From: a virus
Length of the DNA stretch: 64,000 bases
Virus record (IMG/VR): IMGVR_UViG_3300020166_000020
Coordinates: 1 to 64,000 of that record
Direction: 5' to 3' (one strand)
A program made the translations under genes and the position numbers. The first letter of the stretch is position 1. The number at the start of each line of letters is the position of its first letter. The notes under the pieces are model-generated. The model searched no databases. It was given only the letters and a program-made list of their open reading frames with translations, and was not told the DNA's origin. Positions 1 through 26,206 of the stretch are shown here, one piece after another.

Positions 1-721
1 CTTCGTCTGCGTCGCGCTGAGCTTGTAAGCTAGAAACGTCGCTTTCGAGTTCACCTTTGTTGGTGGAGATACTATTAACGTTAGTAGAGATATCACCAGC
101 AAGACTGGAAACGTCACTATCTGTAGTACCTTCGTCTGCGTCGCGCTGAGCTTGTAAGCTAGAAACGTCGCTTTCGAGTTCACCTTTGTTGGTGGAGATA
201 CTATTAACGTTAGTAGAGATATCACCAGCAAGACTGGAAACGTCACTATCTGTAGTGCCTTCGTCTGCGTCGCGCTGAGCTTGTAAGCTAGAAACGTCGC
301 TTTCGAGATCACCTGTGTTTCCTGAAGCTAATTCTTGTAAGCTAGAAACGTCGCTTTCGAGTTCACCTTTGTTAGTGGAGATGTCACCAGCAAGACTGGA
401 AACGTCACTATCTGTAGTACCTTCGTCTGCGTCGCGCTGAGCTTGTAAGCTAGAAACGTCGCTTTCGAGTTCACCTTTGTTGGTGGAGATACTATTAACG
501 TTAGTAGAGATATCGCCAGCAAGACTGGAAACGTCACTATCTGTAGTGCCTTCGTCTGCGTTACGCTGAGCTTGTAAGCTAGAAACGTCGCTTTCGAGTT
601 CACCTTTGTTGGTGGAGATACTATTAGCGTTAGTAGAGATATCGCCAGCAAGACTGGAAACGTCACTATCTGTAGTGCCTTCGTCTGCGTTACGCTGAGC
701 TTGAAGGGATGAGATATCGCT
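1..721 (-). repeat. Tandem 129-bp coding repeat (43 codons)
   Basis: Copies of the same unit begin at plus-strand positions 1, 130, 259, 421, 550 and 679. Spacing is exactly 129 bp except between 259 and 421, where it is 162 bp. The long interval carries an extra ELASGNTGDLESDVSS-type insert and lacks the STNVNSI segment. All spacings are multiples of three, so the frame is kept. Copies are nearly identical at DNA level (for example alternating gcg/gta in the QRDA or QRNA codons), which points to recent duplication and to likely copy-number variation. Confidence 0.93.
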
Positions 722-850
722 TTCAATTGTAGCTTTACTCATTAGTGTGGATCCGCCTGCGCTCTGAATTTCGAACGCGCCAGCTCCACTCGAGGCCAAT
801 CGGATATTGTCCGATAGGCTTAATGTTTCGGTACGGAATACCTTTGCCAT
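1..850 (-). CDS. Repeat-rich tail/fibre-like structural protein, C-terminal part outside window
   Basis: The minus-strand reading frame is open from an ATG at 850 to the window edge, so the protein is cut after about 283 residues. It begins MAKVFRTETLSLSDNI, a short N-terminal segment like those of other phage structural proteins in this genome. From about residue 42 it consists of near-identical 43-residue repeats with recurring ESDVSSL, TDSDVSSL and STNKGELE blocks. The regular spacing of hydrophobic V/L/I residues suggests an alpha-helical coiled-coil stalk. It lies downstream of the glycosyltransferase genes, in the same direction as the tail genes. A fibre shaft or tail needle is likely but unproven; no enzymatic motif is visible. 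Confidence 0.7.
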   Translation of the reverse strand, partial: MAKVFRTETLSLSDNIRLASSGAGAFEIQSAGGSTLMSKATIESDISSLQAQRNADEGTTDSDVSSLAGDISTNANSISTNKGELESDVSSLQAQRNADEGTTDSDVSSLAGDISTNVNSISTNKGELESDVSSLQAQRDADEGTTDSDVSSLAGDISTNKGELESDVSSLQELASGNTGDLESDVSSLQAQRDADEGTTDSDVSSLAGDISTNVNSISTNKGELESDVSSLQAQRDADEGTTDSDVSSLAGDISTNVNSISTNKGELESDVSSLQAQRDADE

Positions 851-933: not shown

Positions 934-1710
934 TTAGCTGCACCAATAGCTCATGAATATTTTTTTTAATTCATGCGGGTAGGCCATAAAATGTAATATA
1001 AATGTATCTTCGTTCACTAATCTTGGATCCGTGTTGAATTCATTCATTTCAAATATTTTTCTATTAAATCCGAAACCATCAGATTTTCGTAGAATTTCGC
1101 ATAATATTTCTTGATCTCCTCCACTCGCATATAATGAAGACTTATCTCCGTTAAAATCTCTCCATTTTGTGATTAAGTTTTTTGTGTATTGATGAGATTT
1201 AAAAAATAATACTCCGCTATTTAACATGCAATGATTGCCAATGTCTTTTGTGGCAAGTATGAATTTTTTAGGAGCTTTTTCTATAATCGACTCGAGTTTT
1301 TTTTCTGGATTGAAAATTAAAGTATCTGAATCCATCCATACAATATAATCGTGATCATCGATATGATTAAGTAGCGCTTGAGATTTTGACCAGTTTGGAC
1401 TTCCGTTTCTATCTAAACTTTCTCTGTAGACGTAAAAGCTATAACCCTGCTTTTGGCAGTAATCCTTAATGCTTTTTTCTGAATAAATAGCGAATTCAGA
1501 AATTTCTTTAGTATACAAGCTGATAATAGCAATCTTCTTGAATGGATTAAAGCAATTGAATCTATCTTCAGGTTCTTGAGTTGCGGGTATTTGAGAGCTT
1601 GTGTATTTAACCCAATCAAAAAGCTTTCTGTGTTTTCCGAATCTATCATTGTTGAAAAAACTAAGCCATTGTTTTTTTAGGTCTATGAATTCTTGTTGTT
1701 TTTTATTCAT
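934..1710 (-). CDS. GT34-like glycosyltransferase (GT-A fold)
   Basis: This 258-residue protein looks like a retaining galactosyl/mannosyl-transferase of the GT34 (GMA12/MNN10) type. The core begins near residue 58 (KKIAIISLY). A DxD metal/nucleotide-sugar motif is visible as W-M-D127-S-D129 followed by TLI. Downstream are NSGVLFFK, a GGDQ segment and a C-terminal FILHFMAYP, all in the order usual for this family. The start codon follows directly after the stop codon of the upstream gene, so translation is probably coupled. It is the last gene of the minus-strand sugar operon. A paralogue lies at 5892-6686. Acceptor and donor sugars cannot be read from sequence. Confidence 0.78.
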   Translation of the reverse strand: MNKKQQEFIDLKKQWLSFFNNDRFGKHRKLFDWVKYTSSQIPATQEPEDRFNCFNPFKKIAIISLYTKEISEFAIYSEKSIKDYCQKQGYSFYVYRESLDRNGSPNWSKSQALLNHIDDHDYIVWMDSDTLIFNPEKKLESIIEKAPKKFILATKDIGNHCMLNSGVLFFKSHQYTKNLITKWRDFNGDKSSLYASGGDQEILCEILRKSDGFGFNRKIFEMNEFNTDPRLVNEDTFILHFMAYPHELKKIFMSYWCS

Positions 1711-3312
1711 TTAATATAATTTAAAATCTTCACTGTTTAAAATTTTTGCTCCTGCGTTTTTAATCTTGCTTGTTAATAATAACTCGTTAATTATGCACTC
1801 AGTTTTTTTCTTGAATAGTTTAACATTTGATTCTATCTTAAATTTACTATGCCAGCCTTTTGTTAGCCAGTTTATTATGTGATTCTTTAAATCGCTTGAA
1901 ATCCTTGGCGAATTTAGAAATGAATTTAATTCGTTTTCATCCTGAATTAATGAGTCAATTTTTATTTCCGAAGAGTTATCTAAATTTATTTTTTGCAGTA
2001 TTTTATTTGGTATAATAATCGCGTTGCTACAAATCCAGTTGTTAAATTTTATGTTATCTAGTGAAAAGTTTTTTTTTGATAAATTTAATCCATCAATCTT
2101 TCCGAAAACTATATCGTGTTTTTTTAATACATTTAATAAATCTTGATTTAAATGTTTGTCTATAATTTTTGTATTATAATTTAAGAAAGAATCATTTGTT
2201 ATTAAAGTTAAATCATAATGCTTGCCTTTTGATTCGTTGAATCCTTTTTGCCAGCCCGAAAATTCCCAGTTTAAGTTGTTACCTGGAATTATTGATATTT
2301 TTTTTCCTTGAAGTTTATTTAAGTCTTCTCGTTTATTATCTATCACTATGCAATCAAAATCTATACCTTTATTGTATAAGGCGTCGGATAAAATTTTAAA
2401 AGAATGAGGATATTTGTTGGAATCGAATTGAGTATATAAAACTAAAAGATTTGCTTTATTTTTAGGGTTAATTTTAAATCTAGAGCAATATCTATCATGC
2501 ACTCCACATAATACGAAGATATCTGCACCCTCTTTTTCTAAGCTGCAACAATAAGCCTTGTCTTCTGGGGCATTTATTTCTTTTTTTTCTTTTATTATTA
2601 TTTCTTTATCTATTATTTCAAAGCTTATCTCGTTAAACTTGTATTCGTATGTATCTCTTCTTTCGTGGCAAAGCATCTTAAATTTATTAGAATTAATATT
2701 TACAGGATTGCATGAGTTTCTGAGTTCTATAGGTTGTGTTAAGTTGGAGTTATTAAACGAAATATTTTCTAGTTTATCTGCTGTTGTATAAACGAGTGGG
2801 AACATGGAGCTTATTGCGTAAAATAAGTTTTCGTGCTTAAAGCACATCCAGTTTTTACTTGGATTGATTTGGTTTATTGGGTCAAACTTTTTAATATTAG
2901 TTATTTCTAGTTTGGATAAGTTTACTGAACAGTAACCTGCTGAAAAATCAATAGACAATTTTTTGCATTCTTCGTTATGGCAGACAACTTGGTTTATTAT
3001 TGTGCACGTAGCTAAAGCAATGATATCGCCGTTTTCTATTGTTTCTGTACCATGTATAAATCTTATATCTTCAGGAAATTTACAATCTGGATTTACGTCT
3101 TTTTTTATATAGCTGTCGAATTTTTCCCCTTTTATATTGAATTTTAATTTAACATATTCTCCGGAATTTTCTTTTAGCCAATAGGTAGATTGACCATTAA
3201 AGGAGCCTCTGGGCGGAGGTGAGTTTTTGTAGTCTTCTCCTCGCGCGATAGTATATTTTTTGCCATTAAAATTTATTGAGCTTGGATTAAAAATGTGAGT
3301 TGTTTTATTCAT
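1711..3312 (-). CDS. Two-domain glycan-related protein (propeller-like N-terminus, glycosyltransferase-like C-terminus)
   Basis: I do not recognise a named family over the full 533 residues. The first ~280 residues (IFNPSSINFNGKKYTIARGED..., FRLEN/WMCFKHENLFYAISSM-type strands, CSLEKEGADIFVLCGVHD) resemble the repeated beta blades of glycosidase-like propeller proteins found fused to glycosyltransferases. From about residue 285 (ANLLVLYTQFD) a Rossmann-like region follows, with FDCIVIDN, GWQKGFNES and LTLITNDSFLNY. These resemble rhamnan-synthesis F-type glycosyltransferases, where the LxNDS-type segment replaces a DxD motif. It overlaps the upstream gene by 4 bp (ATGA type) and abuts the next gene, so it belongs to one polycistronic unit. 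Function is inferred mainly from context. Confidence 0.5.
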   Translation of the reverse strand: MNKTTHIFNPSSINFNGKKYTIARGEDYKNSPPPRGSFNGQSTYWLKENSGEYVKLKFNIKGEKFDSYIKKDVNPDCKFPEDIRFIHGTETIENGDIIALATCTIINQVVCHNEECKKLSIDFSAGYCSVNLSKLEITNIKKFDPINQINPSKNWMCFKHENLFYAISSMFPLVYTTADKLENISFNNSNLTQPIELRNSCNPVNINSNKFKMLCHERRDTYEYKFNEISFEIIDKEIIIKEKKEINAPEDKAYCCSLEKEGADIFVLCGVHDRYCSRFKINPKNKANLLVLYTQFDSNKYPHSFKILSDALYNKGIDFDCIVIDNKREDLNKLQGKKISIIPGNNLNWEFSGWQKGFNESKGKHYDLTLITNDSFLNYNTKIIDKHLNQDLLNVLKKHDIVFGKIDGLNLSKKNFSLDNIKFNNWICSNAIIIPNKILQKINLDNSSEIKIDSLIQDENELNSFLNSPRISSDLKNHIINWLTKGWHSKFKIESNVKLFKKKTECIINELLLTSKIKNAGAKILNSEDFKLY

Positions 3313-4814
3313 TTGAATTTCATTTTGTTTTTATCTATGGGGTTTTTTACCCCCCAATGCTCAACACCGCTTTCGTCGTACATAGCTTCCTTTCCGAGAC
3401 CGTTGGCTGTATTAAAGTTTTCTTTATTGTATTGAAAAATAAAAGTTTTTTCAGGAGGGGTTTCTACGAAAGTTTGAACATACTTTGATTGATTTATTTT
3501 TTGAATTATTTTATCAAGAACTTTTTGACTCGGGCGCCTTTCGAGTGAATGGCCGTATATAATTTTGGTTAAACCATGAAAGTAGGTAATTGGTGCCAAT
3601 GTTAGTATGTCCTGCCATCCTGACCTTCTTCTTCTGAGCATTAGGTCTAGCGCTGACTTATGTAGTGGATTATTTGGGGCGCTTATCATAATATCTTGCG
3701 AAAAATCTATAATTTTCCCATGATTAGAATGTAGTGGTAGAACGCATTTTGAATTTATATCTATAATTGAATTTAAGTTTTTATTTGCATGCCTGTCTAT
3801 ATCTGTATATAGGCCACCTTCGTTAATTATTTTTAATAAACGCCATGTGTCAACTTTTGATACAATTGGGGCATCTTTTATTAAATTATAATCTATAGTT
3901 GATAAATTTTCTCTTAAATATAGTTCGACTTCATTATCATCTGAAATTTCAAGTTTCCATTCTGGGTTTATTTTTACTAGATTCTGTATTCCATTTACTG
4001 CTAATTGATTTGAGCTTTCTAATACAGACTTATCTTTCCATGAAATATGGATTTTCTTAGGTATTGAAGATAAAAGCTCAAGGAGGTCGTCTAAATTTTC
4101 TTTCTGCGAACTTATTCTCATCACGGAAGAGTTTTTAAAGAAATTAGATTTTTGATCCGACAACTCTATGGGGTCTGAAAAAACTTCTTTACTGTATCTT
4201 TCATTATTCAATTCAAAATTGGTTGCAGCCTCTCTCCCTCCAAGCTTTAAATCCTGCAAGAAGAGGGGTTTTTTAAGCGCGTATACATTATAGTTTACTT
4301 GCATTTCAGCGGCAAATACATCCCAGATCTTTTCTTGATAAAAGCCGTCGATCATAGCTTTTTGATAGGCTGAAGCGCCAAGCGGAGAGCAAATCATGAT
4401 TGCGTGACCACTGAGCATGTTGAAAATTTGATATACGTTTTCATCAATTTGTTGGGCGGAAATATTATCAATAGCTTTACCATCATTCATGGCTAGTTGA
4501 GATAGGCCTAGATAAAATAAATCTGCATCATTAGGAATATCAATTTCCTTTGGCATTTCTCGATAAAAAGATACGTCATCCTCTAGTATTACGAATGGCT
4601 GAAATGGCCTTGAGTTATCTTGCTCTCTTAAGCCTGCTTCAATCATTCTTGCGTGACCTATGCTTCCGGATTTTTCTTTTGATATGCCTATTTCAAAAGG
4701 TATTATTTTTTTGCATTGATAATCTTTTAATATAGATTCTACGTGTTTAGAATTTTCACTATCTTCTGTTTTTGTGAGGTAGTAAAATTTAAGACTGTCT
4801 GTTTTTAATATCAT
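3309..4814 (-). CDS. Bifunctional glycosyltransferase: GT25-like plus GT32-like domains
   Basis: The 501-residue protein joins two different transferase types. Residues ~10-210 resemble GT25/LPS glycosyltransferases: YYLTKTEDSEN at the start, a G-S-I-G-H segment, FVILEDDVSF as the acidic nucleotide-sugar motif, and an LSGHAIMI region. Residues ~255-490 match the GT32 'sugar-binding region containing DXD': KKIHISWKDK, NPEWKLEISDD, DTWRLLKIINEGGLYTDIDRH (the D-I-D motif) and SAPNNPL. Such fusions usually add two sugars in succession to one acceptor; that is inference. Its start overlaps the end of the DUF2827 gene by 26 bp, and its end overlaps the next gene by 4 bp. Confidence 0.75.
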   Translation of the reverse strand: MILKTDSLKFYYLTKTEDSENSKHVESILKDYQCKKIIPFEIGISKEKSGSIGHARMIEAGLREQDNSRPFQPFVILEDDVSFYREMPKEIDIPNDADLFYLGLSQLAMNDGKAIDNISAQQIDENVYQIFNMLSGHAIMICSPLGASAYQKAMIDGFYQEKIWDVFAAEMQVNYNVYALKKPLFLQDLKLGGREAATNFELNNERYSKEVFSDPIELSDQKSNFFKNSSVMRISSQKENLDDLLELLSSIPKKIHISWKDKSVLESSNQLAVNGIQNLVKINPEWKLEISDDNEVELYLRENLSTIDYNLIKDAPIVSKVDTWRLLKIINEGGLYTDIDRHANKNLNSIIDINSKCVLPLHSNHGKIIDFSQDIMISAPNNPLHKSALDLMLRRRRSGWQDILTLAPITYFHGLTKIIYGHSLERRPSQKVLDKIIQKINQSKYVQTFVETPPEKTFIFQYNKENFNTANGLGKEAMYDESGVEHWGVKNPIDKNKMKFK

Positions 4815-5895
4815 TTATTATATTATTATATATATTAATGTTGTCTTGATTATGTGGGCTATACTGTTTCAAAAAGTTTTTGTTATCGTCCTTCGTTTGT
4901 TCTAGCGTTTCGCTGTGATTTAGTATAGCGTTCTTTAATTGGTTCGCCCCGAAGTCCACATCACAGTCCGGATAATAATAACCTACATCTTCTAAAGTTG
5001 AAGAGTTGTGTATCAAGGGCAGGTTTAGAAACAGAGCTTCAAGGTAGCTGTAGTTTAATTCGTTTTTAATTTGATGGCTAACTATGGTACTACCAAATTT
5101 ACTTAACGCATCAAGCGTTCCCCATCTTTTATTGAAGTAGCAAAAGTCTTTCTTTTTTACAACCTCTAGTCTATTCATAAGCTTTTCGAAGAACGGATTA
5201 AACTTGATTCTTTGACAGCAGAATACGTTTATGGATTTTAATATTTCCCGATCTTTGTTGTAAAGATTTTCCAATATGTTGATTGGTATTACGCAATTTT
5301 TAATAAAAGATATGTTTGGTTCAAAGATGCATATTTTGTTGATTTTTTCTTTTTTAAAGCTTGGATCTAATCCTTTTTTTTGAAGTTCTTTGATTTTATC
5401 TTCCATAAAAAAAGAGTCCCATATGAAAGGAATAACTATAACATCTTTAAAATTATAATAAGTTTTTATATAGCTTTTGGAAAACTCGTGTTGGGGAGAT
5501 ATCCAGATTTGATTTAGGTATTTCGGTTTTTCTAGTGGCAGTTTTGTGCTTTTGCTTGATAGCGAGTGGTGAATATCATCCATCAATTTATTGCCAAAAT
5601 GTATTAGTATCGTTTTGAAATTATTGTTCCTGGCTTTTAATTTGTCGTACATTTCTGGAAGTAAATCGAATCCGGCGACGATTACTAGGTCTAAATTTTC
5701 ATTATCGTCGGCAAGTAAATCTTCTAAAAGCATACCTTTGTGATTCTTCTTTAGTTTGTGAGTCGGGTTTTTATGGGTGATATAAAAGCATTCGTGGCCG
5801 CATCTATCTATCATTTCATAAAGAAATACGATGTTTTGTTGCATTCCGTTAGCCCAAAAAGCAATGGACATATCTAGGGTTATTCCTATTTTCAT
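4789..5895 (-). CDS. DUF2827-family glycosyltransferase-like protein
   Basis: The 368-residue sequence matches the DUF2827 family as I know it: start MKIGITLDMSIAFWANGMQQNIVFL, where the NG..QN..FL motif is characteristic, then a central DQ/WISPQHE segment and ICIFEPNISFIKN. Near the C-terminus are NYSYLEALFLNLPLIHNS and GYYYPDCD, which read like the donor-binding half of a GT-B transferase (E in YLEAL, then the G-Y-Y-Y-P segment). It is predicted to be a cytoplasmic glycosyltransferase. A paralogue with the same landmarks lies at 6683-7762, each paired with a GT34-like gene. It overlaps both neighbours, consistent with coupled translation. Confidence 0.75.
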   Translation of the reverse strand: MKIGITLDMSIAFWANGMQQNIVFLYEMIDRCGHECFYITHKNPTHKLKKNHKGMLLEDLLADDNENLDLVIVAGFDLLPEMYDKLKARNNNFKTILIHFGNKLMDDIHHSLSSKSTKLPLEKPKYLNQIWISPQHEFSKSYIKTYYNFKDVIVIPFIWDSFFMEDKIKELQKKGLDPSFKKEKINKICIFEPNISFIKNCVIPINILENLYNKDREILKSINVFCCQRIKFNPFFEKLMNRLEVVKKKDFCYFNKRWGTLDALSKFGSTIVSHQIKNELNYSYLEALFLNLPLIHNSSTLEDVGYYYPDCDVDFGANQLKNAILNHSETLEQTKDDNKNFLKQYSPHNQDNINIYNNIINDIKNRQS

Positions 5896-6686
5896 AATTT
5901 TATTTTTGTTTTTCGCAATGGTAAGAAGTCTATATTATTTGCGATCAGTAATATTGCCTGTTTATATATTTCAATAGGCCTATGGTTTATTTTGTCATCA
6001 CCTTCGTAGCTTCTTTGATATGCCCCCCAAACTTGACACGAAAACACTAGCCAATAATACTCTAGTTCTATGTCGCACGAGATTTCTTCATTCGCGAATC
6101 TAACAAAACCATCATAATCTAAAGGGTGGTGACCCATAAAGTGTATTAAAAAGTCTCCACGATTGTATAGAGTTGGGTATATATTAAAGTGATGTGGGTT
6201 TACGGGGTTGAGTTTGCTATGTTTTTTTAGAATATCTACTAGCCTACCTTGGTCTTCATTGTTACCTCCATGCCTCCAGGGTTTGTCTACACCTATGTAT
6301 CGAGATTCCCACCACTCATTTAACACTTGTAGTGAAAAATCATTTGTTTTAAAAAACAAAACCCCACTATTTAGTGCTTGTCCTCCTAAGTCTTTTGCAT
6401 GTAAAATATCTTGTTCTGAGTTTTTTAGATAATTATATAAATCGAAATTTCTATTAGCTATTGTAGTGTCCATATCTAGCCACCCTAAATATTCATATTC
6501 ATTAAAATGATGTAATAATTTTAGCGGTTTTTGGTAGCAAAGGTGGGTTGATTTATCAAGGGTTCCTGCGCTTCCCAGGTGGTCGTAGCCTTTTTTGTTG
6601 CAATAATCTATAACTGAATTTACGCAATTCTTGCGTTTTTCATAATATCTTGAATCGGATAGTTGACAAATTCCTATTTTTTTCAT
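5892..6686 (-). CDS. GT34-like glycosyltransferase (paralogue of 934-1710)
   Basis: This 264-residue protein has the GT34-type core: KKIGICQLSDSRYYEKRKNCVNSV, WLD71-M-D73-TTI as DxD motif, QALNSGVLFFK, a GGNNEDQGRL segment and FLIHFMGHHP near residue 193. The same landmarks occur in the protein encoded at 934-1710, which has a longer N-terminal extension. It overlaps both DUF2827-type neighbours by 4 bp, giving an alternating DUF2827, GT34, DUF2827 order. A C-terminal tail of ~60 residues rich in aromatics (EYYWLVFSCQVWGAY) is not explained by the transferase core. Donor sugar is unknown. Confidence 0.78.
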   Translation of the reverse strand: MKKIGICQLSDSRYYEKRKNCVNSVIDYCNKKGYDHLGSAGTLDKSTHLCYQKPLKLLHHFNEYEYLGWLDMDTTIANRNFDLYNYLKNSEQDILHAKDLGGQALNSGVLFFKTNDFSLQVLNEWWESRYIGVDKPWRHGGNNEDQGRLVDILKKHSKLNPVNPHHFNIYPTLYNRGDFLIHFMGHHPLDYDGFVRFANEEISCDIELEYYWLVFSCQVWGAYQRSYEGDDKINHRPIEIYKQAILLIANNIDFLPLRKTKIKL

Positions 6687-7762
6687 GATAATAATTTTTT
6701 ATATTTTTCTATAACAATTGGATTATTTGGTGAGTGTTTGTAGATTGTTTTTTGCGCTTGCTCTTTGTATTTATCTAGATTTTGATCGTGATAATTTAAG
6801 GCGAGGTTTAGAGCCTCTGCCCCCAACTTGGTGTCGTAATTAGGGTAGTAGTATCCAGATTCTTTAATCAGCTCAGAGTTGTGAACAAGGGGGAAATTGA
6901 AATGCAATGCTTCGAAATACGTATAATTTAAGGCGTTCAATAGTTGATTTGAGATTATGACATTAGACATATCTGCAAATATTTTAGAAACTTTTATTCT
7001 TCCTTTAAATTCTATTTTATTTTCTTTTGTTACATCTAGGTTCCACATTAGGGATTTGAAGTATTTTTTATCAGTAAATTTTGCCGCGCAATAAACTGTT
7101 ATTTTGTTAAAATCTTCCTTGCTGACCTTTGTATAAAATTCTTCAGCTATCATTATCGATGGCAGGCAGTGTTTTGTTATGTTTAAATTAGGTTCGAGTA
7201 TTCCAATATTTTTGTCTTCGCCTGGACGGTAGTAGCAGGTCTTGTTTATTTTGTTCCATATTTTTTCATGCATGTCTATATATTTCGAGCTCCAGATATA
7301 AGGCAGTTCAAATACTCTTTCTGTGTTGTAATATGTTTTGTAGTAGTTATATGAAAATTTGTAATGAGGGGATATCCATACTTCGTCGACCATTTCTGGA
7401 CTTATAGCTAAATGATCTTGCCAGCTACATCTTTCTATGTCTGCCAGAAGACCATTTCCGTAAACAATATGTATGTTTTTGAAATTTTTATTTTTTTCTT
7501 TTATTGATTTTATTGTATCATTATTTATTAGCCAGGAAGCGTTTAATATAAAAGATATATCTTCACAATATTCTAATAATTCATTTTCTTCTATAATTAA
7601 TATATCAGATGGTGGATCAATGCATTCTTCTATTTTATGATTTATGGCAATAATTGGAGTAAAGCCAATGCCTTTTAATAGTTCAGCAAGGAAAACTATA
7701 TTTTGTTGAAGTCCGTTGCTGAATAACCCGTTTTTATAATTAGCAGTAAGCAATATATTCAT
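6683..7762 (-). CDS. DUF2827-family glycosyltransferase-like protein (paralogue)
   Basis: The 359 residues begin MNILLTANYKNGLFSNGLQQNIVFLAELL, with the NG.QQNIVFL motif of DUF2827 proteins. Further shared landmarks with the 4789-5895 product are WISPHYKFSYNYYKTYYN, IGILEPNLNITKHCLP, NALNYTYFEALHFNFPLVHNS and GYYYPNYD. The pair therefore arose by duplication or shared transfer. It is the first gene of the minus-strand sugar operon. A late-type GTGTAATAA element lies 7-15 bp before its start codon, so this operon is probably expressed with structural genes. That timing suggests the glycan is attached late in infection, perhaps to virion parts; this is inference. Confidence 0.75.
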   Translation of the reverse strand: MNILLTANYKNGLFSNGLQQNIVFLAELLKGIGFTPIIAINHKIEECIDPPSDILIIEENELLEYCEDISFILNASWLINNDTIKSIKEKNKNFKNIHIVYGNGLLADIERCSWQDHLAISPEMVDEVWISPHYKFSYNYYKTYYNTERVFELPYIWSSKYIDMHEKIWNKINKTCYYRPGEDKNIGILEPNLNITKHCLPSIMIAEEFYTKVSKEDFNKITVYCAAKFTDKKYFKSLMWNLDVTKENKIEFKGRIKVSKIFADMSNVIISNQLLNALNYTYFEALHFNFPLVHNSELIKESGYYYPNYDTKLGAEALNLALNYHDQNLDKYKEQAQKTIYKHSPNNPIVIEKYKKLLS

Positions 7763-7792: not shown

Positions 7793-10378
7793 TTATTCAG
7801 AAATTACGAAACTAGCGGGATTTGATGGAACTGCATTAGCGGACCTGTTCAATTTGTCTAGATTGAATATATAACTTCCGTTAGAGTCAGTGATTCCGTT
7901 TATGTCACATATCGCGAATTTATTATTAATATCGTAAGTGTTGTCTAGTTGGGTTCCGTCTGCGTACGCTTGGTATGTATATATTGTTCCTCCGTTTTGT
8001 GCGGAACCTCCTTCCGAAATGTTCTCAAGGGATAAATTATTAGGGTTGGATACTGAGGTTCCTATGCTTGCTAAACCTTGCCCAATACTGTTGGGTGAAG
8101 CTTCTATCGTTCTTGAGGAAAAACCCTCCAATTTATATGTGGGGTTTACTGCTATTGACGTAGTTTCTATTCCTGCAAGATTGACTGCCGAAGCTTGCCA
8201 GGAGAAGGTTCCTTTTGTATCTACATCTAGGGCTGTAATCGTATAAGAGTTGCTTAATTTTCCTGTACCTTGGGAGTTTTGAGATAGAGTTGACGAGTTT
8301 GCTTGGGCTGTATCAGTACTTAAGGTTGGGTTCGCTAACATTAGTTGGTCGCTCGCTAAAGAAAACTGATCTTGGTTTCCGCTCGGTGAGCTACTTAGTT
8401 TTTGAGAAAGGTTAATTATTGACAAGCTTAGTGGAGTGTTTGCGATATTTATAACATCTTCCTTTTCTATAGTTATTCCATTAGAGTTTTTTGTGGCGGA
8501 TATTTTTATATTGTTATCTCCTCCGTCTGATTTTATATTATAACTACCATTTAAGTAGGATACATTTTTTAGGGATTCGAACGACGAGGAATTATCTATT
8601 GAGAGTTGATTGTTTTGAGAGGAATAAGTTATAATGTCGAAATTTGAAGCCGTGTTATTCAGGGCTGCTGATTCCGTGGATTTTATAGCTTGTTGTGAAT
8701 TGGGGTAGGATATTGCTCCGATATTCACAGACGGAAAGCTTAGGTTGTTAAGTCGAGCGGTGTCTGAAGTGGTGAATTTGTCGCTAGTAGAGCCAAAATT
8801 ATTCTTAGCTATTATTGATATGGGGAGATCTCCATCTCTAGACGAAGAGCCTATTGACCCGAATACATTTATCGGAACTTCGAATTTAAAACTTCCGTCG
8901 CTCAATACGGTCTTGGAGAAGTTTGAGTTGTAGTTAGTTTGAGAGCCATTTGATAAACCTTCGTTTCTTATAGATATAGAAATGTCGTTTATATCAACCC
9001 CTTTTCCATCTATAAATATTTCTGAACCTACTACGTCTCCAGCTTTCACCTCTGATGTCCCTATAGAGTGAGGCGGTATTGAGGATGTAGCTATAGCGGA
9101 TAAATTTGCGCCTGTTATTGCGGGGCCGTTTTCGATTTTAACTTTTACTCTTTCCGTATCGGTTGCTCCGTTGTTTGTTCTTACTGCGTTAATTTCTATA
9201 TTGTCTGAATTGTTGTATATTCCATTTACATAATTTACCGACTTGCTGCTTTCAAAGGTTGATGTATTGGATATCGAAATGTCTGAATTTAGGGCTGTGT
9301 ATGAAACTGTATCGGAGGTGTTGGACCAGTTTGAAATAGTGTTTGAGAAGGAGGTGCTCTCTCCCTCTCTTAATCCATCAGATCTTCCATTGTACGAACT
9401 GGGATTATTGGCTGATATTATGGGGTATGATTGATCTAAATTTCTTGTCCCGCTAAAATGCATAAAGTCAGTAGATTCTTTAAGCTCTCCGGTAGAGCCG
9501 AAAGAGTTTATCGCTTGTATTGCAACGGGTTGAGGTCCTGTTTCGTTAGAGATGGTCACTGGTATTGTGGCTCTATAACGGCCCCCCAGGTTTGATAGTT
9601 GATAGTTTGCGAAATCTATCTCTTGAGCTAATCCGTACCCGTGAACTTTTATTAAAGTTATATCGTTTGTGTCGAAGTCTGCATATATGTTTATTTTATC
9701 TCCAGCTTTTAAGTGGCTTACTCCTAGCTGTTGCTGGGGTTTTGGCGTAGCGTTGATAATTTCATCTATGAATATGTTTATTGGCTCAGGACCTAAACCT
9801 AGTTCGTTTAATGAAATTTCAGAAACTCTTCCGTTCGCTGTTGCGGTTATTGATGTGGCTCCCTCTAGGTTTATATTATTCAAAAAACCTTTAAATCTTC
9901 GGGTGTCTTGCCCTAACTGCTCAATGTTACTTAAGGGTATTTTTTGATTATTAATAAAAGCTTCCCCCATGTAATCGTAATTTGGGCCATCCCATTGTAT
10001 TTCCACTCTTAGATCTGATGCAGATGCAACTGTTATTCCTGATAAATAAAGATTTGGATCCGGGGAGTCAAAGAAGGTCTTGTTTGTTACGCCGTTATTA
10101 TCTTGAACATCGGATATAAAAAGAAATTCTGCAGCTCCAGATTCTACTTGGGATATTGATGTGCCCAGCTTGGAAACATCTACCCCTCCGAGCGTTAAGG
10201 AGTCTGTAAAATTTCCACTCACAAACTCTACACTATCTGAGGTTCTTACGTTTTGGTCCATGGAGACCATTAATCCGCCAAAATATAAATTATCAAATAC
10301 TCCTGTCGCCCAAGCTTTGTCTAGCCTGCCGACTCCACCTTCTCCGCTATTCCTTGGAACTAAATTTCTTGTAGCCAT
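7793..10378 (-). CDS. Fibre-like structural protein with tandem beta-sandwich modules
   Basis: This 861-residue protein starts MATRNLVPRNSGEGGVGRL and continues DQNVRTSDSVEFVSGNFTDSLTLGG, an N-terminus typical of phage tail fibre or virion proteins. Two large similar modules follow. Each opens with a VKAGD segment (about residues 225 and 440), contains INSFGSTG or KNNFGSTS, and ends with a 'F-E-S...V-x-Y-x-N-G-x-Y-N' strand pattern (near 370 and 590). They look like immunoglobulin-like or other beta-sandwich repeats. There is no catalytic motif. The C-terminus (NKFAICDINGITDSNGSYIFNL) may be a head-binding or receptor-binding tip. A perfect GTGTAATATA element precedes the start. Confidence 0.65.
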   Translation of the reverse strand: MATRNLVPRNSGEGGVGRLDKAWATGVFDNLYFGGLMVSMDQNVRTSDSVEFVSGNFTDSLTLGGVDVSKLGTSISQVESGAAEFLFISDVQDNNGVTNKTFFDSPDPNLYLSGITVASASDLRVEIQWDGPNYDYMGEAFINNQKIPLSNIEQLGQDTRRFKGFLNNINLEGATSITATANGRVSEISLNELGLGPEPINIFIDEIINATPKPQQQLGVSHLKAGDKINIYADFDTNDITLIKVHGYGLAQEIDFANYQLSNLGGRYRATIPVTISNETGPQPVAIQAINSFGSTGELKESTDFMHFSGTRNLDQSYPIISANNPSSYNGRSDGLREGESTSFSNTISNWSNTSDTVSYTALNSDISISNTSTFESSKSVNYVNGIYNNSDNIEINAVRTNNGATDTERVKVKIENGPAITGANLSAIATSSIPPHSIGTSEVKAGDVVGSEIFIDGKGVDINDISISIRNEGLSNGSQTNYNSNFSKTVLSDGSFKFEVPINVFGSIGSSSRDGDLPISIIAKNNFGSTSDKFTTSDTARLNNLSFPSVNIGAISYPNSQQAIKSTESAALNNTASNFDIITYSSQNNQLSIDNSSSFESLKNVSYLNGSYNIKSDGGDNNIKISATKNSNGITIEKEDVINIANTPLSLSIINLSQKLSSSPSGNQDQFSLASDQLMLANPTLSTDTAQANSSTLSQNSQGTGKLSNSYTITALDVDTKGTFSWQASAVNLAGIETTSIAVNPTYKLEGFSSRTIEASPNSIGQGLASIGTSVSNPNNLSLENISEGGSAQNGGTIYTYQAYADGTQLDNTYDINNKFAICDINGITDSNGSYIFNLDKLNRSANAVPSNPASFVISE

Positions 10379-10400: not shown

Positions 10401-10805
10401 TTAAAAAGATATATCATCTGTAAAAGCTTCGGGGCCTGTATCATACCTCCAGATATTAGCTCTTAATTCTAGATTATTATCATCCCTTAATATCCACATT
10501 GAATCTGATATAAGTGGGGCGTTAGAAGGGGATATATCTCCCAGCTCATCTTTCTCAAAGGCTTCTGATATATCAAGCCTATTGTCTCGAAGGTTAGAGT
10601 TAAAAATTTGATCTTGCAGTGAGCTTCCTGTTATGTAGTCTGATACATTTAGGCCGTTTATAAATAAAGCGGAAGTTGCATATATCTCATCAACCTCAAG
10701 CCTGTTTCCATCTAGCCTTAACTGTGGTTCAGTTAAGCTTCTCCCGATTATATAACTATCTGGCCCTACCCTTTTTAGAGGGTCTTTGATTCTGAAATAG
10801 TCCAT
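10401..10805 (-). CDS. Small structural protein, unknown
   Basis: A 134-residue protein starting MDYFRIKDPLKRVGPDSYIIGRSL. I do not recognise a family. It contains ATSALFINGLNVSDYITGSSLQ, a phrase similar to the 'FINGLNVS' stretches in phage fibre N-termini, and ends with a beta-like WRYDTGPEAFTDDISF. Its start codon follows immediately after the stop of the 420-residue gene, and it sits between two fibre-like genes. A small virion or fibre-attachment protein is the most likely reading. Confidence 0.55.
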   Translation of the reverse strand: MDYFRIKDPLKRVGPDSYIIGRSLTEPQLRLDGNRLEVDEIYATSALFINGLNVSDYITGSSLQDQIFNSNLRDNRLDISEAFEKDELGDISPSNAPLISDSMWILRDDNNLELRANIWRYDTGPEAFTDDISF

Positions 10806-12068
10806 TTAGCCGTCGATCCTGTCTTGCTCCGCTGGAACTTTATATATAATTGCGTAATCTACTGAATATCCTGATATAGTATGCGGTCTTTTTACAAAAA
10901 CTCTTCCTGCTTCGTCATTGTGTATCTTAACGGCCATATCTGGATCGAGGAATATTAAATTATCTTTTCCTTCTTTTACTGAATCTGTTATTGAAAACCT
11001 TCTGTCGCTCGTGTGAAACTGTATGGGGTAGGGAGAATGGTTGTATATTACAATATGATCAAGTAGTCCTCTTTCATATAATTCATTATAATCTTGTAAT
11101 TCGTAAGAATTTTTTAAACTAGCCTTAAAGTTTTCTTGCCTTAATCCGTATTGAGTATCGCTATCAAAAGTAGAAAAAGAGTCTCTACATCTATCAGGTT
11201 TTGTATATTCTGCGTGCAGGAAAAAATCTGGATGTGATTTTTCTGGTTCACTGGAATTTTTTCTTCCATTATTGAAGTAGTTTCCGAATAAATCATCTTT
11301 TATGTTTCTGTCTTGACCTAAGCAATCTCCAGAGTTTGAGCCAAACCTTAATTCTTCAGGAATGTCTTCCATTAGTATGAAGTCTTCTTCTATTTTTTGC
11401 GAAACCGTCTTGGTTCTGAGTTTCCATTGTTGAGACTTACTTCTTGATTGATTTCCAGTAATGGAGTCGGACGGGCTTACTCCTATTTGGTCAAGTTTTC
11501 CTATTACTCCCGAAAGTAGTTCGTGGGTTTTATTGTCATCTACATCTAGATTTGATAAACCTATGGATAAGCCTGATAGCAAACCGTGAGCTTTTGTGTC
11601 GTTTACGTCAAGATTAGTTAGCGAATCTAAGACTCCAGATAGCAATCTATGAGATTCAACATCTTTATCTATCTCTACATCAATGTGTATGTTTGATAAT
11701 TCTGATTTTACTCCTGATAGCAACTCATGAGATCTCGTGTCGTTTACCCCTAGGTTAAGCAATTCGCCATGAATGCCTGATAGTAACCTATGGGATTCTA
11801 TATCCCTGTCGATCTCAACCTCAACATGAATATTTGAGAGTTCTCCTGATATACCTGACAATAACTTTACACTACTAGAGCTTTGCCTGTTTAACTCTGC
11901 GAGCTCTCCAGATAACCCTTCTAGTATAAAATCTACTTCCGCTGCAGGGTCCCATCTTCCCGATGCTTTGTTCCAGTTATAAGAAAAAGATGGCGAGGGT
12001 GATAGCGCATCAAGTTTTGTTATATCCGTATATAACGGATTATTCTTAAAATCTCCTGGGTCTGACAT
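10806..12068 (-). CDS. Structural protein with 'LLSG' helical repeats
   Basis: The 420-residue protein has about eight repeats in residues ~50-205, each of roughly 17-22 residues and built on H-x-LLSG-x-x-x-x-L-x-N-L-x-V-x-D (for example SHRLLSGIHGELLNLGVND). The spacing of leucines suggests a trimeric coiled-coil or stacked helices. The C-terminal ~120 residues (LLDHIVIYNHSPYPIQFHTSDRRFSIT..., VFVKRPHTISGYSVDYAIIYK) resemble a compact beta domain found in phage head-tail or tail accessory proteins. The gene is preceded by a GTGTAATATA element and a 19-bp palindrome. Function is structural by context; a specific role cannot be given. Confidence 0.6.
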   Translation of the reverse strand: MSDPGDFKNNPLYTDITKLDALSPSPSFSYNWNKASGRWDPAAEVDFILEGLSGELAELNRQSSSSVKLLSGISGELSNIHVEVEIDRDIESHRLLSGIHGELLNLGVNDTRSHELLSGVKSELSNIHIDVEIDKDVESHRLLSGVLDSLTNLDVNDTKAHGLLSGLSIGLSNLDVDDNKTHELLSGVIGKLDQIGVSPSDSITGNQSRSKSQQWKLRTKTVSQKIEEDFILMEDIPEELRFGSNSGDCLGQDRNIKDDLFGNYFNNGRKNSSEPEKSHPDFFLHAEYTKPDRCRDSFSTFDSDTQYGLRQENFKASLKNSYELQDYNELYERGLLDHIVIYNHSPYPIQFHTSDRRFSITDSVKEGKDNLIFLDPDMAVKIHNDEAGRVFVKRPHTISGYSVDYAIIYKVPAEQDRIDG

Positions 12069-12100: not shown

Positions 12101-12437
12101 TGTCAAGAGGGTGCTTTATGCCCCTTCTCTTGCTACTATAATCCTTGAAGTATTTTTTTTGAACAGGGTCGTACCCTAGTTTATCTTTTCTCATTTGCCC
12201 CAACTCTTTACTTTTTTCTAGCACATCGTTATAAGAACCTTTTTTATTAAAGGTTTTAGACTTGAACGCTTCTTTGTCGAACGGGTCAATACTTGAGTCT
12301 GTTGAAGCTTCAGGCGCGTAAAATACTCTATTCCACTTTACTCCTTCATTGTCAATATATATGTGATCCTCTTTCATCGATTGAACTATGTCAATCAACT
12401 CTTCTGTTTCGGGGTGCTCATATGTATATAGAGGCAT
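12093..12437 (-). CDS. FmdB-like protein without zinc cysteines
   Basis: The 114-residue protein opens MPLYTYEHPETEELIDIVQSM, which aligns with the MPxYEYxC..CG.....QSM start of FmdB-family zinc-ribbon proteins. The cysteines are replaced (H-P-E-T), so no zinc can be bound in the usual way. The rest (FDKEAFKSKTF, a lysine-rich KKYFKDYSSKRRGIKHP tail) is charged and probably binds nucleic acid or another protein. It overlaps the upstream GT4-like gene by one base. FmdB-like proteins recur in phage genomes, but their role there is not established. Confidence 0.55.
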   Translation of the reverse strand: MPLYTYEHPETEELIDIVQSMKEDHIYIDNEGVKWNRVFYAPEASTDSSIDPFDKEAFKSKTFNKKGSYNDVLEKSKELGQMRKDKLGYDPVQKKYFKDYSSKRRGIKHPLDNT

Positions 12438-13489
12438 TATTCTAAAATCTTATTTAGTGTGTTTTCATAGGTGAACTTATGCTTTAATTTTTCACCTTCT
12501 GTATTTGTTATGGTACATTTTTCTTCAGCTTTTTCCATTGCATCGATGAATTCATCTTGATCAAAAGTATATATGTTGCCCTGATTAAACTCTTCTCCTT
12601 CTTTAAAAAACATATTATCATAAGCAGGCTCTTTGCCGCTTGGGTTTACTAGTACGCAGTTGTCTTTAGAAGCCCAATCTTTATGAGAGCTACTATTTAG
12701 TACTATGCTCCATTTTCCTAGGCAGGTTGCGTTAAAAGAGGGGAGGTTCCAACCTTCTGCGCCACTCATTCCTCCTAGGTCAATATCTATTGAGTTTAAG
12801 TAGTCGTTTACTTGAGAATTTTTAGGAAGGAAGGGTAAGAAATTAATGTTCTCACATCTTTCTCCTCCTAGAATTCGTGATATTACGGCCTCCATTTGTT
12901 CTTTCTTTAGAAATGGGTTTGTTATGCAGCATGTCAATTGGTAGTTGTGGTTACCTCCGTACTTACGGATCCAGCATTTTATTATTTTTTCGGTATGCTT
13001 TCTTTTTTCAAATTTACCCATTAACCCAAAGTGGGTTTTTCCCTCAAGGTATTTTTTTTCAGTTTTATGAAAAAAGCTATCAAACCCCAAAGGGGAAAAC
13101 GATGAATCTGGAAAGAGAGATTGAGCTTGAGATGAGCTAAATACAGTCTTATCTTGAAAGTTTGCTAGGGAAATTTCCGTGCTAGTTGGCTTATCTAACT
13201 CGTAAAAAGTATACAGTATCTGCTTGGGGGATATTCTGTTTTCCGAACCATTTAAGTGCCACATTTGCAACGTTGTGTCAGATTTCTTGAATATTTGAAA
13301 CCTATCATTAATCCCAGATTCTATCCATGTTTTAAAATCTTGATCTATTTCGAAGGCGCTAACATCTATATTGCCATTCGGGAATATAGCTACGTTCATT
13401 CCCTTTTCGAACATTGCCTTTAGTAGGTTTACGGACACGTTCCCAAATGATAAGGAGTTTAGTGGGCCTTTATATATTATTGAATTCAT
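12437..13489 (-). CDS. GT4-like glycosyltransferase (GT-B fold)
   Basis: A 350-residue group-1-type glycosyltransferase. The N-terminal half starts with IIYKGPLNSLSFGNVSVNLLKAM. The C-terminal half has the expected donor-domain landmarks: FGLMGKFEKRKHTEKIIKCW, a central strand NINFLPFLP, and GGMSGAEGWNLPSFNATCLGKWSIVL in place of the usual E-x7-E region (G-A-E-G-W-N-L-P). It lies between ssb and the FmdB-like gene rather than in a sugar operon, and may act separately from them. The start follows the ssb stop by one base. Acceptor is unknown. Confidence 0.72.
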   Translation of the reverse strand: MNSIIYKGPLNSLSFGNVSVNLLKAMFEKGMNVAIFPNGNIDVSAFEIDQDFKTWIESGINDRFQIFKKSDTTLQMWHLNGSENRISPKQILYTFYELDKPTSTEISLANFQDKTVFSSSQAQSLFPDSSFSPLGFDSFFHKTEKKYLEGKTHFGLMGKFEKRKHTEKIIKCWIRKYGGNHNYQLTCCITNPFLKKEQMEAVISRILGGERCENINFLPFLPKNSQVNDYLNSIDIDLGGMSGAEGWNLPSFNATCLGKWSIVLNSSSHKDWASKDNCVLVNPSGKEPAYDNMFFKEGEEFNQGNIYTFDQDEFIDAMEKAEEKCTITNTEGEKLKHKFTYENTLNKILE

Positions 13490-23651: not shown

Positions 23652-24302
23652 ATGTCATTATCTTTATACAAACCAAACAGCAAAAACGCAGGTTGCGCTT
23701 TCAATTTCTCAATAGGTCACAACAAAAAGAAAGAGCCGGTTGTTTACGCAAACGCCATTCAACAGCACAGCTGGAACGACAAAACAAAAACGGGAAGCTT
23801 TTCTCAAAATGCGAATGATCCAGATAAAAAAATAAATATAAAATTTACTGAATTCGAAATAGGCGGAGTAATAAGCGCGTTTAAAAACAGAAACGAATTC
23901 TCATCTTTTCATGCATTTGAAGACAACAAGACTTCAATAAAATTTACCCCCTGGGACAAGAAGTCAAAAATAAAAACCGCAGATTCTGAAAAATGGGTAA
24001 CTCTTCCCGCCTTCGGAATAACCCTAACTAGAAATGGAAGTCAAAATTTCAGAATACCACTAGAACCTGGCGAGGTAGAGAATCTAACCGAATTTTTTAA
24101 ACATTACCTTCATTGTCTCTACGAGTACAGAAGAATAGAGGACCATAAAAAGATGCAAAGCTATCGAGATAAAAGCGATAATAGATCCCAAGATTATCTA
24201 GCTGGAGGATTAGGTATGCTTCAAAAACTACTAAACATTTCTTGTGATGGCGCAAATAATAAAACCGAAAAACCGACGCCCTCAGAGGATGCTCCGTTTT
24301 AA
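23652..24302 (+). CDS. Predicted ssDNA-binding protein with SSB-type acidic tip
   Basis: The 216-residue protein starts MSLSLYKPNSKNAGCAFNFSIGHNKKKEPVVYANAIQQHSWND and contains INIKFTEFEIGGVISAF, FSSFHAFEDNKTSIKFTPW and FGITLTRNGSQNFRIPLEPGEVENLTEFFKHYL. This is the layout of a family of phage proteins often found next to replication and recombination genes. The C-terminus is a flexible spacer ending P-S-E-D-A-P-F, the acidic-aromatic tip that bacterial SSBs use to recruit partners. I predict binding of ssDNA or RNA. It has its own promoter and a putative annealing protein lies downstream. Confidence 0.55.
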   Translation: MSLSLYKPNSKNAGCAFNFSIGHNKKKEPVVYANAIQQHSWNDKTKTGSFSQNANDPDKKINIKFTEFEIGGVISAFKNRNEFSSFHAFEDNKTSIKFTPWDKKSKIKTADSEKWVTLPAFGITLTRNGSQNFRIPLEPGEVENLTEFFKHYLHCLYEYRRIEDHKKMQSYRDKSDNRSQDYLAGGLGMLQKLLNISCDGANNKTEKPTPSEDAPF

Positions 24303-26206
24303 TGAATAAAAAAAAAATCTTAATACACTCCAATCACTGTAAAGCTTTTACTGGATTCGGAAAGCATACGAAAAATATACTACTCTACTTACAAAAAACA
24401 GGAAAGTATGATATAGTAGAGTTCTCAAACGGCATACAATGGGGAGACTCGTCTTTAAAAAACTTGCCATGGAAGTGTGAGGGCTCTCTCCCTAACAATC
24501 CATCTTTATTAAGAAAATTAAAAGAAGATCCAAGTTTAGCAAGAAGCGCCAGCTACGGAACCCACACGATTGACAAGATAATTGAACAGGAGAAACCTGA
24601 TGTTTACATAGGTATAGAAGACATATGGGCCTTCTCAGGATATACAGAAAAGAAATGGTGGAACAAAATAAATTGCATGATCTGGACTACTTTAGACAGC
24701 CTGCCAATACTACCCGAAGCAGAGAAAGTTGCCCCAGAGATCAAAAACTATTTTACGTGGTCATCCTTCGCGTCAAAAGCTTTAAATAAATTAGGTCACG
24801 ATCATGTAAAAACTTTACATGGAGCCCTAGACACCTCAAACTTTAAAAAGTTAGAGGATCAAGATAGAAAGAAGATAAGAAACTTCTTTAAAATAGATAA
24901 AGACTTTGTGATAGGTTTCGTTTTCAGGAACCAATTAAGAAAGAGCGTCCCAAATCTACTTGAAGGATTCAAGATTTTTTGTAACCAAAATCCAAACTCA
25001 TCAGCTAAATTACTATTACACACTAGCTGGTCAGAGGGCTGGGATATCCCGAGGCTAATCAAGGAGAAGAAAATAGATCCATCCAGAGTATTAACTACTT
25101 ATATATGCTCTAATTGCAAAAACTTCGAGATAAAAAGTTTCTCGAAAGAGGAAGAAGATTGCCCTTTTTGCGGTTCAAAGAAAAGCCAAAACACAACAAA
25201 TGCTAAACTAGGAGTTAGTGAAATTCAGTTAAATCAGATATATAACTGCATGGACGTCTATTGCCACCCATTTACAAGCGGGGGTCAAGAGATACCTATA
25301 CAAGAAGCGAAGCTAACAGAGTTGATAACTCTAGTAACAAATTATAGCTGCGGAGAAGATTGCTGCACCAAAGACTCGGCAGGCCTACCGCTTAGCTGGA
25401 CTGAATATAGAGAACCGGGCACCCAGTTTATCAAAGCTAGCACCAGTCCTGACAGTATAGCCAGTCAATTAAGAAAAGTATTCAGAATGAGTAACAGTAA
25501 AAGAGAAGAGCTTGGCAGGAAAGCTAGAGATTTTACAATAAAAAATTACGGAATAGAATCTATAGGAAAAAAACTGGAGCTACTTCTAGATAATATGTAT
25601 GCTCCAGATTGGGATTTTGATTTTAAATCAAAACCTAAAAACCCTGAATATAACCCTCCAGAGATAGAGGATCAATCTGATTGGTTAAAAGATATTTATA
25701 GAAATATCCTAGATATGGAAATTAAAGAATCTGATGATGGGCACAAGCATTGGTCAAAAAAATTATCCGAAGGCGCCACCAGGGATGAAATATTAAAATA
25801 CTTTAAGCAAGTAGCAGCAAAAGATAATGAAAAAAATAAAAACATAAATTTCTCTGAGCTTTTAAGTGAGGACGATAAAGGGAAAAGGCTTTTAATATCG
25901 ATGCCCGAAAGTATAGGAGATGTATATCTATGCACTTCTTTACTAAAAAACATAAAAGAGACTTACCCAGATTTAAATATTTACTTTGCAACGAAAAAAG
26001 AGTATTTTGAAGTACTAGAAGGAAATCCTTATATACATAAGGTTATACCCTACGATAAGAATTTAGATAACCTTACAGTAATGGAAGGGCACGGAGATCA
26101 CGAAGGTTTCTTTGAAATAGCTTTTTTACCTTTCATAGGAACTCAAAGAATGTTAAATTACATGCACAACGGAAAAGATAAAATACAATTCGACATATGC
26201 ACTTAA
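24302..26206 (+). CDS. GT4 glycosyltransferase with zinc ribbon, fused to the N-terminal half of a GT9 enzyme
   Basis: The 634-residue protein begins as a GT4 transferase: ILIHSNHCKAFTGFGKHTKNILLYL, DKIIEQEKPDVYIGIED, VIGFVFRNQLRKSVPNLLEGFKIF and VYCHPFTSGGQEIPIQEAKL (the E-x7-E-type donor loop). A zinc-ribbon insert is clear: C269-x2-C272 and C287-x2-C290. From about residue 528 a new domain starts: RLLISMPESIGDVYLCTSLLKNIKETYPDLNIYFAT, the acceptor half of a GT9 enzyme, which ends abruptly at residue 634. The missing half starts the next, overlapping gene. Start shares a base with the SSB-like stop. Confidence 0.78.
   Translation: MNKKKILIHSNHCKAFTGFGKHTKNILLYLQKTGKYDIVEFSNGIQWGDSSLKNLPWKCEGSLPNNPSLLRKLKEDPSLARSASYGTHTIDKIIEQEKPDVYIGIEDIWAFSGYTEKKWWNKINCMIWTTLDSLPILPEAEKVAPEIKNYFTWSSFASKALNKLGHDHVKTLHGALDTSNFKKLEDQDRKKIRNFFKIDKDFVIGFVFRNQLRKSVPNLLEGFKIFCNQNPNSSAKLLLHTSWSEGWDIPRLIKEKKIDPSRVLTTYICSNCKNFEIKSFSKEEEDCPFCGSKKSQNTTNAKLGVSEIQLNQIYNCMDVYCHPFTSGGQEIPIQEAKLTELITLVTNYSCGEDCCTKDSAGLPLSWTEYREPGTQFIKASTSPDSIASQLRKVFRMSNSKREELGRKARDFTIKNYGIESIGKKLELLLDNMYAPDWDFDFKSKPKNPEYNPPEIEDQSDWLKDIYRNILDMEIKESDDGHKHWSKKLSEGATRDEILKYFKQVAAKDNEKNKNINFSELLSEDDKGKRLLISMPESIGDVYLCTSLLKNIKETYPDLNIYFATKKEYFEVLEGNPYIHKVIPYDKNLDNLTVMEGHGDHEGFFEIAFLPFIGTQRMLNYMHNGKDKIQFDICT

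Follow-up and report, generated by a model that had tools for sequence, protein, structure and literature searches.

Periscope Proteins are bacterial-surface rods of near-identical tandem repeats that expand and contract (PMC9704523, in the sections drawn on here). The genes for SdgA and SdgB lie beside those of the Ser-Asp-repeat adhesins that the two enzymes glycosylate (PMC3794999, likewise in part), and mycobacteriophage virions are described as glycosylated, with glycans on the C-termini of capsid and tail-tube subunits (Freeman 2023, as cited in the portion of PMC12619734 used here). For the glycosyltransferases of pelagimyophages, modification of the host O-chain has been proposed (PMC7029224, in the part considered). 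Here we report a repetitive virus gene whose array is a real feature and which probably encodes a phage fibre stalk, variable in length in phase-preserving blocks and exchanged together with a glycosyltransferase cassette. Our search of the literature, which covered mostly publications available without subscription, found no previous description of a coiled-coil phage stalk that varies in length and is exchanged with such a cassette.

The window, by which we mean the whole 64,000-nucleotide stretch analysed, comprises positions 1-64000 of a 75,819-base virus record (IMGVR_UViG_3300020166_000020). The stalk gene lies at 2..850 on the minus strand, opens with an ATG at 850..848 and continues for 283 codons without a stop to base 2, where the record breaks off. 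Position 1 marks the end of an assembly; the gene is therefore truncated at its 3' side, and its true number of units cannot be read. The stalk region (5..718, minus strand) consists of 12 units beginning with D[IV]SSL, 11 of which are complete, at 18 or 25 residues, and the last of which is cut by the contig end.

An earlier note on this DNA had described near-identical 129-bp units with one 162-bp interval and small codon differences, and all of these are present in the reading frame from 850 to 2. Copies 1 to 4 of the 129-bp unit lie on the minus strand at 575..703, 446..574, 155..283 and 26..154, with the 162-bp interval at 284..445, and the distances from QAQR to QAQR are 43, 43, 54, 43 and 43 residues (129, 129, 162, 129 and 129 bp). 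The four full units differ pairwise by 1-5 bases, located in five codons, two of them non-synonymous (N/D and A/V). Tandem Repeats Finder recovered the array as two halves, each with a score of 617 and with 98% and 96% matches, far beyond chance. The 43-residue unit of the earlier note gives way to a composite: the [IV]SSL motifs are spaced at 18, 25, 18, 25, 18, 18, 18, 18, 25, 18 and 25 residues, and the underlying unit has 18 residues, to which 7 more may be added, such that 43 = 18+18+7 and 54 = 3x18. Every spacing in the 162-bp interval (54 residues) is accordingly 18, three units that lack the 7-residue insert. The recent duplication that had been read from the array fits the differences of 1-5 bases, but gene conversion would give the same picture.

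Relatives were gathered by six scans of viral contigs, which yielded 33 contigs with the stalk gene, the window counted in. A count of every SSL past residue 38 in the first 23 contigs gave 216 spacings, of which 201 can be written as sums of 7 and 11; one of the 201 (108 residues, in the second stalk gene of L034) is so long that its fit is trivial. The 15 that do not fit, of 6, 9 and 12 residues, come from extra SSL copies within longer intervals (L031, L032 and L057-L059). The ten later contigs, scored with a slightly looser motif and including some distances that cross the C-terminal knob described below, stand outside this count; most of their short spacings fit as well, with exceptions in L068 (17 and 12) and L067 (12). 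The [IV]SSL period is 18 in many relatives, 14 in L036 and L037, and 11 or 22 in L056, and motifs of this type alternate at 11 and 7 residues in L034 and L072. Since the spacings are sums of 7 and 11, changes in length would preserve the phase of a coiled coil.

Hydrophobic residues in the window recur with a period of 3.59 residues per turn (power 39.6 against a shuffle maximum of 8.3), within the range of 3.5-3.67 for a coiled coil. Among the relatives, the 18-residue stalks (L002-L008 and L038-L041) have periods of 3.59-3.61, and L056-L059 have periods of 3.67-3.68; the signal is weak or ambiguous for L007, L008, L036, L041 and L056, and the peaks of L007, L041 and L048 lie below their own shuffle 95% level, the values for L048, like those for L047, being meaningless because these fragments are mostly knob. 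A strict 18-residue repeat can peak in this range only at 3.6, and the telling figure is therefore the power relative to other harmonics. The window passes that comparison clearly (37.9 at 43/12 against 13.3 at the next best harmonic), as does L039; the margin is modest in L002 and L003 and almost nil in L008, and L036 and L056 fail. The values for L036, L037 and L039, of periodicity and composition alike, include the knob, the end of the stalk having gone unrecognised there.

Complete stalk genes, encoding 137-805 aa, are held by 16 of the 33 contigs. For one of them, L002, AlphaFold2 predicts beta strands between residues 9 and 37, a single helix from 39 to 217 and a beta domain from 220 to 295, with block-mean pLDDT of 88-97 over residues 41-210 and a whole-chain pTM of 0.33; the modelled protein is that of L002, as a single chain, and the window protein is one row of its alignment. 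The corresponding N-terminal domain of the window protein (residues 1-40; 731..850, minus strand) begins in alignments with a conserved MAKVFRTE and presumably attaches the protein to the virion. The predicted continuous helix, together with the hydrophobic period of the window, supports the fibre stalk proposed in the earlier note. At 0.149 nm per residue, the stalks would measure about 10-37 nm in the 11 of 14 genes in which the end can be placed, and that of the window at least 36 nm, an estimate that takes the modelled repeats as a helical rod, probably that of a bacterial-virus fibre.

Modelled alone, the knob of L002 has six strands (pLDDT 88.7). Foldseek gave it a probability of 1.00 to the phi297 tailspike, Helix aspersa agglutinin and the R1 pyocin fibre at weak E-values (0.008-0.02, best 7.8e-3, none at 0.001), the Helix agglutinin 4q56 scoring TMq 0.64 and E 0.014. 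VIA-align, with which models lacking a clear Foldseek match often reach Z 7-8, gave Z 8.3-9.2 over 79-81 residues at 2.4-2.7 Å to the LKA1 and phi297 tailspikes, R1 pyocin and Helix aspersa agglutinin, the last at Z 8.3, 79 residues and 2.4 Å; as in the H-type lectin fold, the modelled knob is a six-stranded beta domain that superposes on the Helix agglutinin. With Pfam H_lectin (PF09458), all five complete relatives scanned score below the gathering threshold of 24, the best at 16.6 bits, the window having no knob to scan. A profile search of PDB sequences with the knob found nothing, and among 50,697 phage records none matched a 74-residue knob query.

When the whole protein was searched against the same 50,697 records, 30 Bacillus phage records matched, all at less than 60% identity, and the matches listed span residues 32 or 41 to 276, which is the stalk. 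We rejected these matches, and one to a PHROG named minor head protein, as homology, since they concern the repetitive part at less than 60% identity and leave the N-terminus uncovered. Matches to Pfam HIP1, Syntaxin_2, Gp58 and others fell below cut-off and were taken as coiled-coil composition. One scan of bacterial genomes matched 44 stretches, none of them a relative.

Based on these observations, it is probable that the window holds the 5' part of a phage fibre gene. The small conserved N-terminal beta domain would be the anchor in the virion, and the single long alpha-helix, which must assemble as a coiled coil (probably a trimer), would be the rod, followed by a knob with the H-type-lectin/tailspike-tip fold that is absent from the window as the contig ends. 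The rod would be written in 7- and 11-residue steps, mostly 18 = 7+11, joined in the window by 25 = 18+7. When near-identical DNA units recombine unequally, in-frame blocks that keep the helix phase would be added or removed, with the length of the rod varying while anchor and knob remain in register.

Coiled-coil whiskers occur in phages, and the gene could accordingly encode a whisker or a fibre of the head or neck instead of a tail fibre. We regard this placing as unlikely, since the knob has the fold seen at the tips of tail fibres and tailspikes and the window stalk gene lies near a protein that matches a PHROG called tail sheath. The latter is an 861-aa protein (7793-10378) whose C-terminal half gives the match and which is distant kin of proteins of large Pseudomonas phages such as PaBG. 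Upstream of its gene are genes of 420 and 134 aa (10401-12068) with relatives of 420-587 and 134-671 aa, and the counterpart ORF in L019 is itself a tandem repeat. The window also encodes a protein matching central tail fibre J (37402-42024), an odd mixture with the tail-sheath-like one, as well as giant ORFs of 2763 aa (29105-37396, no PHROG match) and 2402 aa (49253-56461).

Some relatives carry more than one such gene. Behind a glycosyltransferase cassette, L034 has two different stalk-fibre genes in tandem (L034:10001-12163; 374 and 333 aa), each of which has a knob and a repeat type of its own. L079 and L080 are two fibre genes on one 58,613-base contig, L079 being a long-stalk gene cut by the contig end and L080, which L078 resembles, having a short stalk with an Asp-rich C-terminal extension.

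The earlier note also supposed that the number of units varies, a supposition that a constant number in all related genomes would have contradicted. Two near-identical pairs differ, both of them metagenome assemblies, in which short repeats can be miscounted. What sets L040 and L041 apart is a single in-frame block of 141 bp (47 residues = 18+18+11) with repeated DNA at its borders; their flanks on either side of the array are 99.67% identical over 2,134 bp and 99.96% over 9,892 bp. L072 has 3 units and L073, itself cut, at least 6, and starting inside the array the two share 3,431 bp at 100% identity. Against such variation, L036 and L037 have 23 motifs each although their DNA is only about 70% identical. 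If the helix is as continuous as the models predict, the number of units would set the length of the fibre.

Contig ends fall inside the stalk gene in 17 of the 33 contigs, the window included (10 among the first 23 contigs, 7 among the ten later ones), against 1.9-4.7 expected from contig sizes with gene lengths of 900 to 2,400 bp; assemblies are broken at this gene either by the repeats as such or by genuine mixtures of lengths. L059 and L068, both from metagenome 3300020187, carry the 5' and 3' ends of one stalk type, apparently split inside the array. Given these broken ends, short-read assembly of repeats might have produced the 162-bp interval, the numbers of units counted and the differences in copy number alike, and the three 54-bp units of L072 could be a collapsed longer array. 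Such an origin is nevertheless quite improbable, as the units in L040/L041 differ from one another while the remaining 12 kb or so is 99.7-99.96% identical, the gene is complete in 16 contigs, and neither the repeat itself nor the spacing rule depends on copy number. For viromes in general, contig ends and repeat counts at genes of this kind should be treated as unreliable.

Next door, and absent from the earlier note, is a cassette of glycosyltransferase genes whose type the stalk follows. Directly upstream of the stalk on the minus strand, the window encodes a glycosyltransferase with Pfam Glyco_transf_34 (cassette type I, 934..1710), a 533-aa protein with no Pfam match (1711..3312), a glycosyltransferase with Pfam Gly_transf_sug (3309..4814), DUF2827 protein 2 (4789..5895), a second Glyco_transf_34 glycosyltransferase (5892..6686) and DUF2827 protein 1 (6683..7762). 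DUF2827 protein 2 had no match in the phage collection. The pair of DUF2827 genes with glycosyltransferase genes directly upstream of the stalk was found in 16 of 23 records searched (the window and 15 others), four of the 23 being cut too close to the stalk for a cassette to be seen. The L017 cassette combines GT25, Gly_transf_sug, GT8, GT34, RXYLT1-like, GXM-like and pyruvyl-transferase domains, and other mixtures occur in L031, L034, L040, L056 and L057. A single phage protein of L017 (L017:14397-17117) carries GT8, RXYLT1-like, GXM-like and GT34 domains. Outside the cassette, the window has a further glycosyltransferase-like gene (24302-26206, plus strand; 634 aa, PHROG 2170), and a 350-aa gene (12437-13489, minus strand) matches PHROG 2170 as well.

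Four genomes allow stalk, cassette and backbone to be compared separately. The window and G004 share one backbone (dNMP kinase and a 350-aa protein 100% identical, the 861-aa tail protein 98%), and G001 and G006 share a second (100%, 100% and 96%), while between the two backbones these proteins are 53%, 68% and 66-67% identical, respectively. DUF2827 proteins 1 and 2, by contrast, are 97% and 95% identical between the window and G001 and 97% and 98% between G004 and G006, and only 67% and 49-50% within each backbone. The stalks behave in the same way, with 4-mer cosines of 0.87 (window and G001) and 0.92 (G004 and G006) against 0.26 and 0.21 within the backbones. All four combinations of two backbones and two cassettes thus exist, and the stalk goes with the cassette every time.

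The borders of the exchanged segment are partly visible. In six of six comparisons among these four genomes, identity over the first 180 nt of DUF2827 protein 1 is 92-99%, and past this stretch the identity between cassette types drops to about 70% and 65%, which places the upstream boundary at the same point in both pairs, near window position 7580. Over its first 135 nt, the stalk gene is 97-99% identical in every one of the six. Downstream, no boundary was found between L018 (of G001, type I) and L021 (of G006, type II), which are 95-97% identical just past the stalk gene and then drop to 76-86% before the data end.

Joint exchange may reflect function, in that the enzymes and their acceptor move together, or mere adjacency. 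According to the functional explanation the stalk is the substrate: the cassette would glycosylate the Ser/Thr/Asp-rich rod, the two would be exchanged together, and the number of units would set the number of glycans. This proposal, which adds to the fibre model above and replaces nothing in it, we hold tentatively, as possible rather than probable. It is favoured by the tracking of cassette and not backbone in all four combinations, and by a rank correlation of 0.68 between stalk and cassette similarity in eight genomes (0.69 as a partial correlation controlled for the 861-aa tail protein, with an exact permutation p of 0.011), which is support and not proof, the genomes being related and two pairs weighing heavily. 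Between the window and G004, moreover, the 420-, 134- and 861-aa structural neighbours are nearly unchanged, lying in a 10.6-kb block whose identity averages 93% (97-100% starting at the 134-aa gene and through most of the 861-aa gene, 86-93% at its end) while stalk and cassette differ, and L018 and L021 are 86% identical in the knob and 98% in the N-terminus with the stalk replaced. Ser and Thr make up 29% of the window stalk, and the sdgA/sdgB genes beside those of the Ser-Asp-repeat proteins that they glycosylate offer a precedent (PMC3794999, in part).

Several observations argue against the stalk as substrate. Adjacency by itself explains joint transfer, and G001 and G006 differ in two further structural genes before the 861-aa gene (541 against 587 and 396 against 433 aa; about 68% DNA identity over part). 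Stalks of the DISSL type are present in G011 and G012 with no match to DUF2827, GT34 or Gly_transf_sug in these 76-77 kb records, GT34 and Gly_transf_sug having been searched in 10 of the 23 records and the G011 stalk starting 707 bases from its contig end. The groups are not told apart by Ser+Thr content, which is 21% in L036 and L037 (knob included) and also 21% in L040, which has a cassette. When DUF2827 protein 1 was taken as the control, the partial correlation was 0.22 (p 0.07, n = 13) or 0.13 (p 0.28, n = 8); this protein belongs to the exchanged block and was set aside as a backbone control in favour of the 861-aa protein. The Ser-Ser of SSL was considered as a diagnostic glycan acceptor and rejected, since stalks from records that lack a cassette have the motif equally, and its conservation in the per-position unit counts is circular, those units having been chosen by [IVL]SSL.

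Linkage alone would equally account for joint transfer if the cassette alters the host surface (for example the O-antigen, or to block superinfection) and the stalk is exchanged as its neighbour in a hypervariable host-recognition island. We consider this explanation a strong contender, at slightly less than an even chance. It agrees with the published view of pelagimyophage glycosyltransferases, many of which lie in a host recognition cluster (PMC7029224, in the part considered), and with the upstream boundary, which in both pairs coincides with the conserved 5' end of DUF2827 protein 1. G014, whose DUF2827/glycosyltransferase cassette lies elsewhere, some 11 kb from the stalk gene, also points this way and away from the stalk as substrate: its cassette best matches those of L017 (0.50) and L040 (0.45) and its stalk those of L018 (0.50) and of the window and L040 (0.47), a partial agreement that does not support specific pairing of stalk and cassette, on a one-way measure whose query included DUF2827 protein 1 and omitted one 245-aa protein, unlike the measure behind the correlation controlled for DUF2827 protein 1. 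Against linkage alone, a change of receptor should alter the knob most, yet the knob is 86% identical where the stalk is replaced, in the one pair (L018 and L021) that permits the comparison between types, the knobs of the window and G004 being cut off.

The joint exchange with sugar-attaching enzymes hints that the rod may be sugar-coated. Taken furthest, this would make the stalk a scalable rod for glycan display, with each cassette dedicated to its own stalk type, the two exchanged as a unit through the conserved 5' ends of DUF2827 protein 1 and of the stalk gene, and the number of units tuning both reach and glycan load; we consider this extended proposal doubtful. The natural four-way exchange of backbone with stalk and cassette makes the target of phage glycosyltransferase clusters directly testable. 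More generally, a simple rule of 7/11 sums would let a viral fibre change length by recombination with its structure unbroken, and differences in predicted fibre length are seen here between near-identical environmental phages.

The knob fold resembles that of R-type pyocin fibres and of tailspikes with H-type-lectin-like tips (6cl5, 4ru5 and 4ru4; VIA-align Z of about 9 over 79-81 residues). Unlike those proteins, the one described here has a long coiled-coil rod of variable length in 7/11-residue steps, and its knob profile has no sequence match in the PDB. Its predicted stalk is also like the coiled-coil stalks of trimeric autotransporter adhesins such as UspA1 (PMC6839023, in the part used), which are bacterial surface proteins. 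Glycosylated mycobacteriophage virions demonstrate that glycans on phage virion proteins exist, and the portion of PMC12619734 considered mentions no fibre stalk. The Ser-Asp-repeat adhesins with SdgA and SdgB (PMC3794999, in part) have in common with this locus a repetitive stalk gene adjoining glycosyltransferase genes, an arrangement found here in 16 of 23 records; they are bacterial proteins of SD dipeptides with demonstrated glycosylation, whereas the present units are of the coiled-coil type and are putative acceptors. With Periscope Proteins (PMC9704523, in part) the locus shares a near-identical tandem-repeat rod of changing length, the number of units differing between near-identical genomes in two pairs (metagenome assemblies, one member cut). 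Periscope Proteins attach to bacterial cell surfaces, whereas the gene reported here belongs to a virus record and encodes a phage rod predicted to be a single helix.
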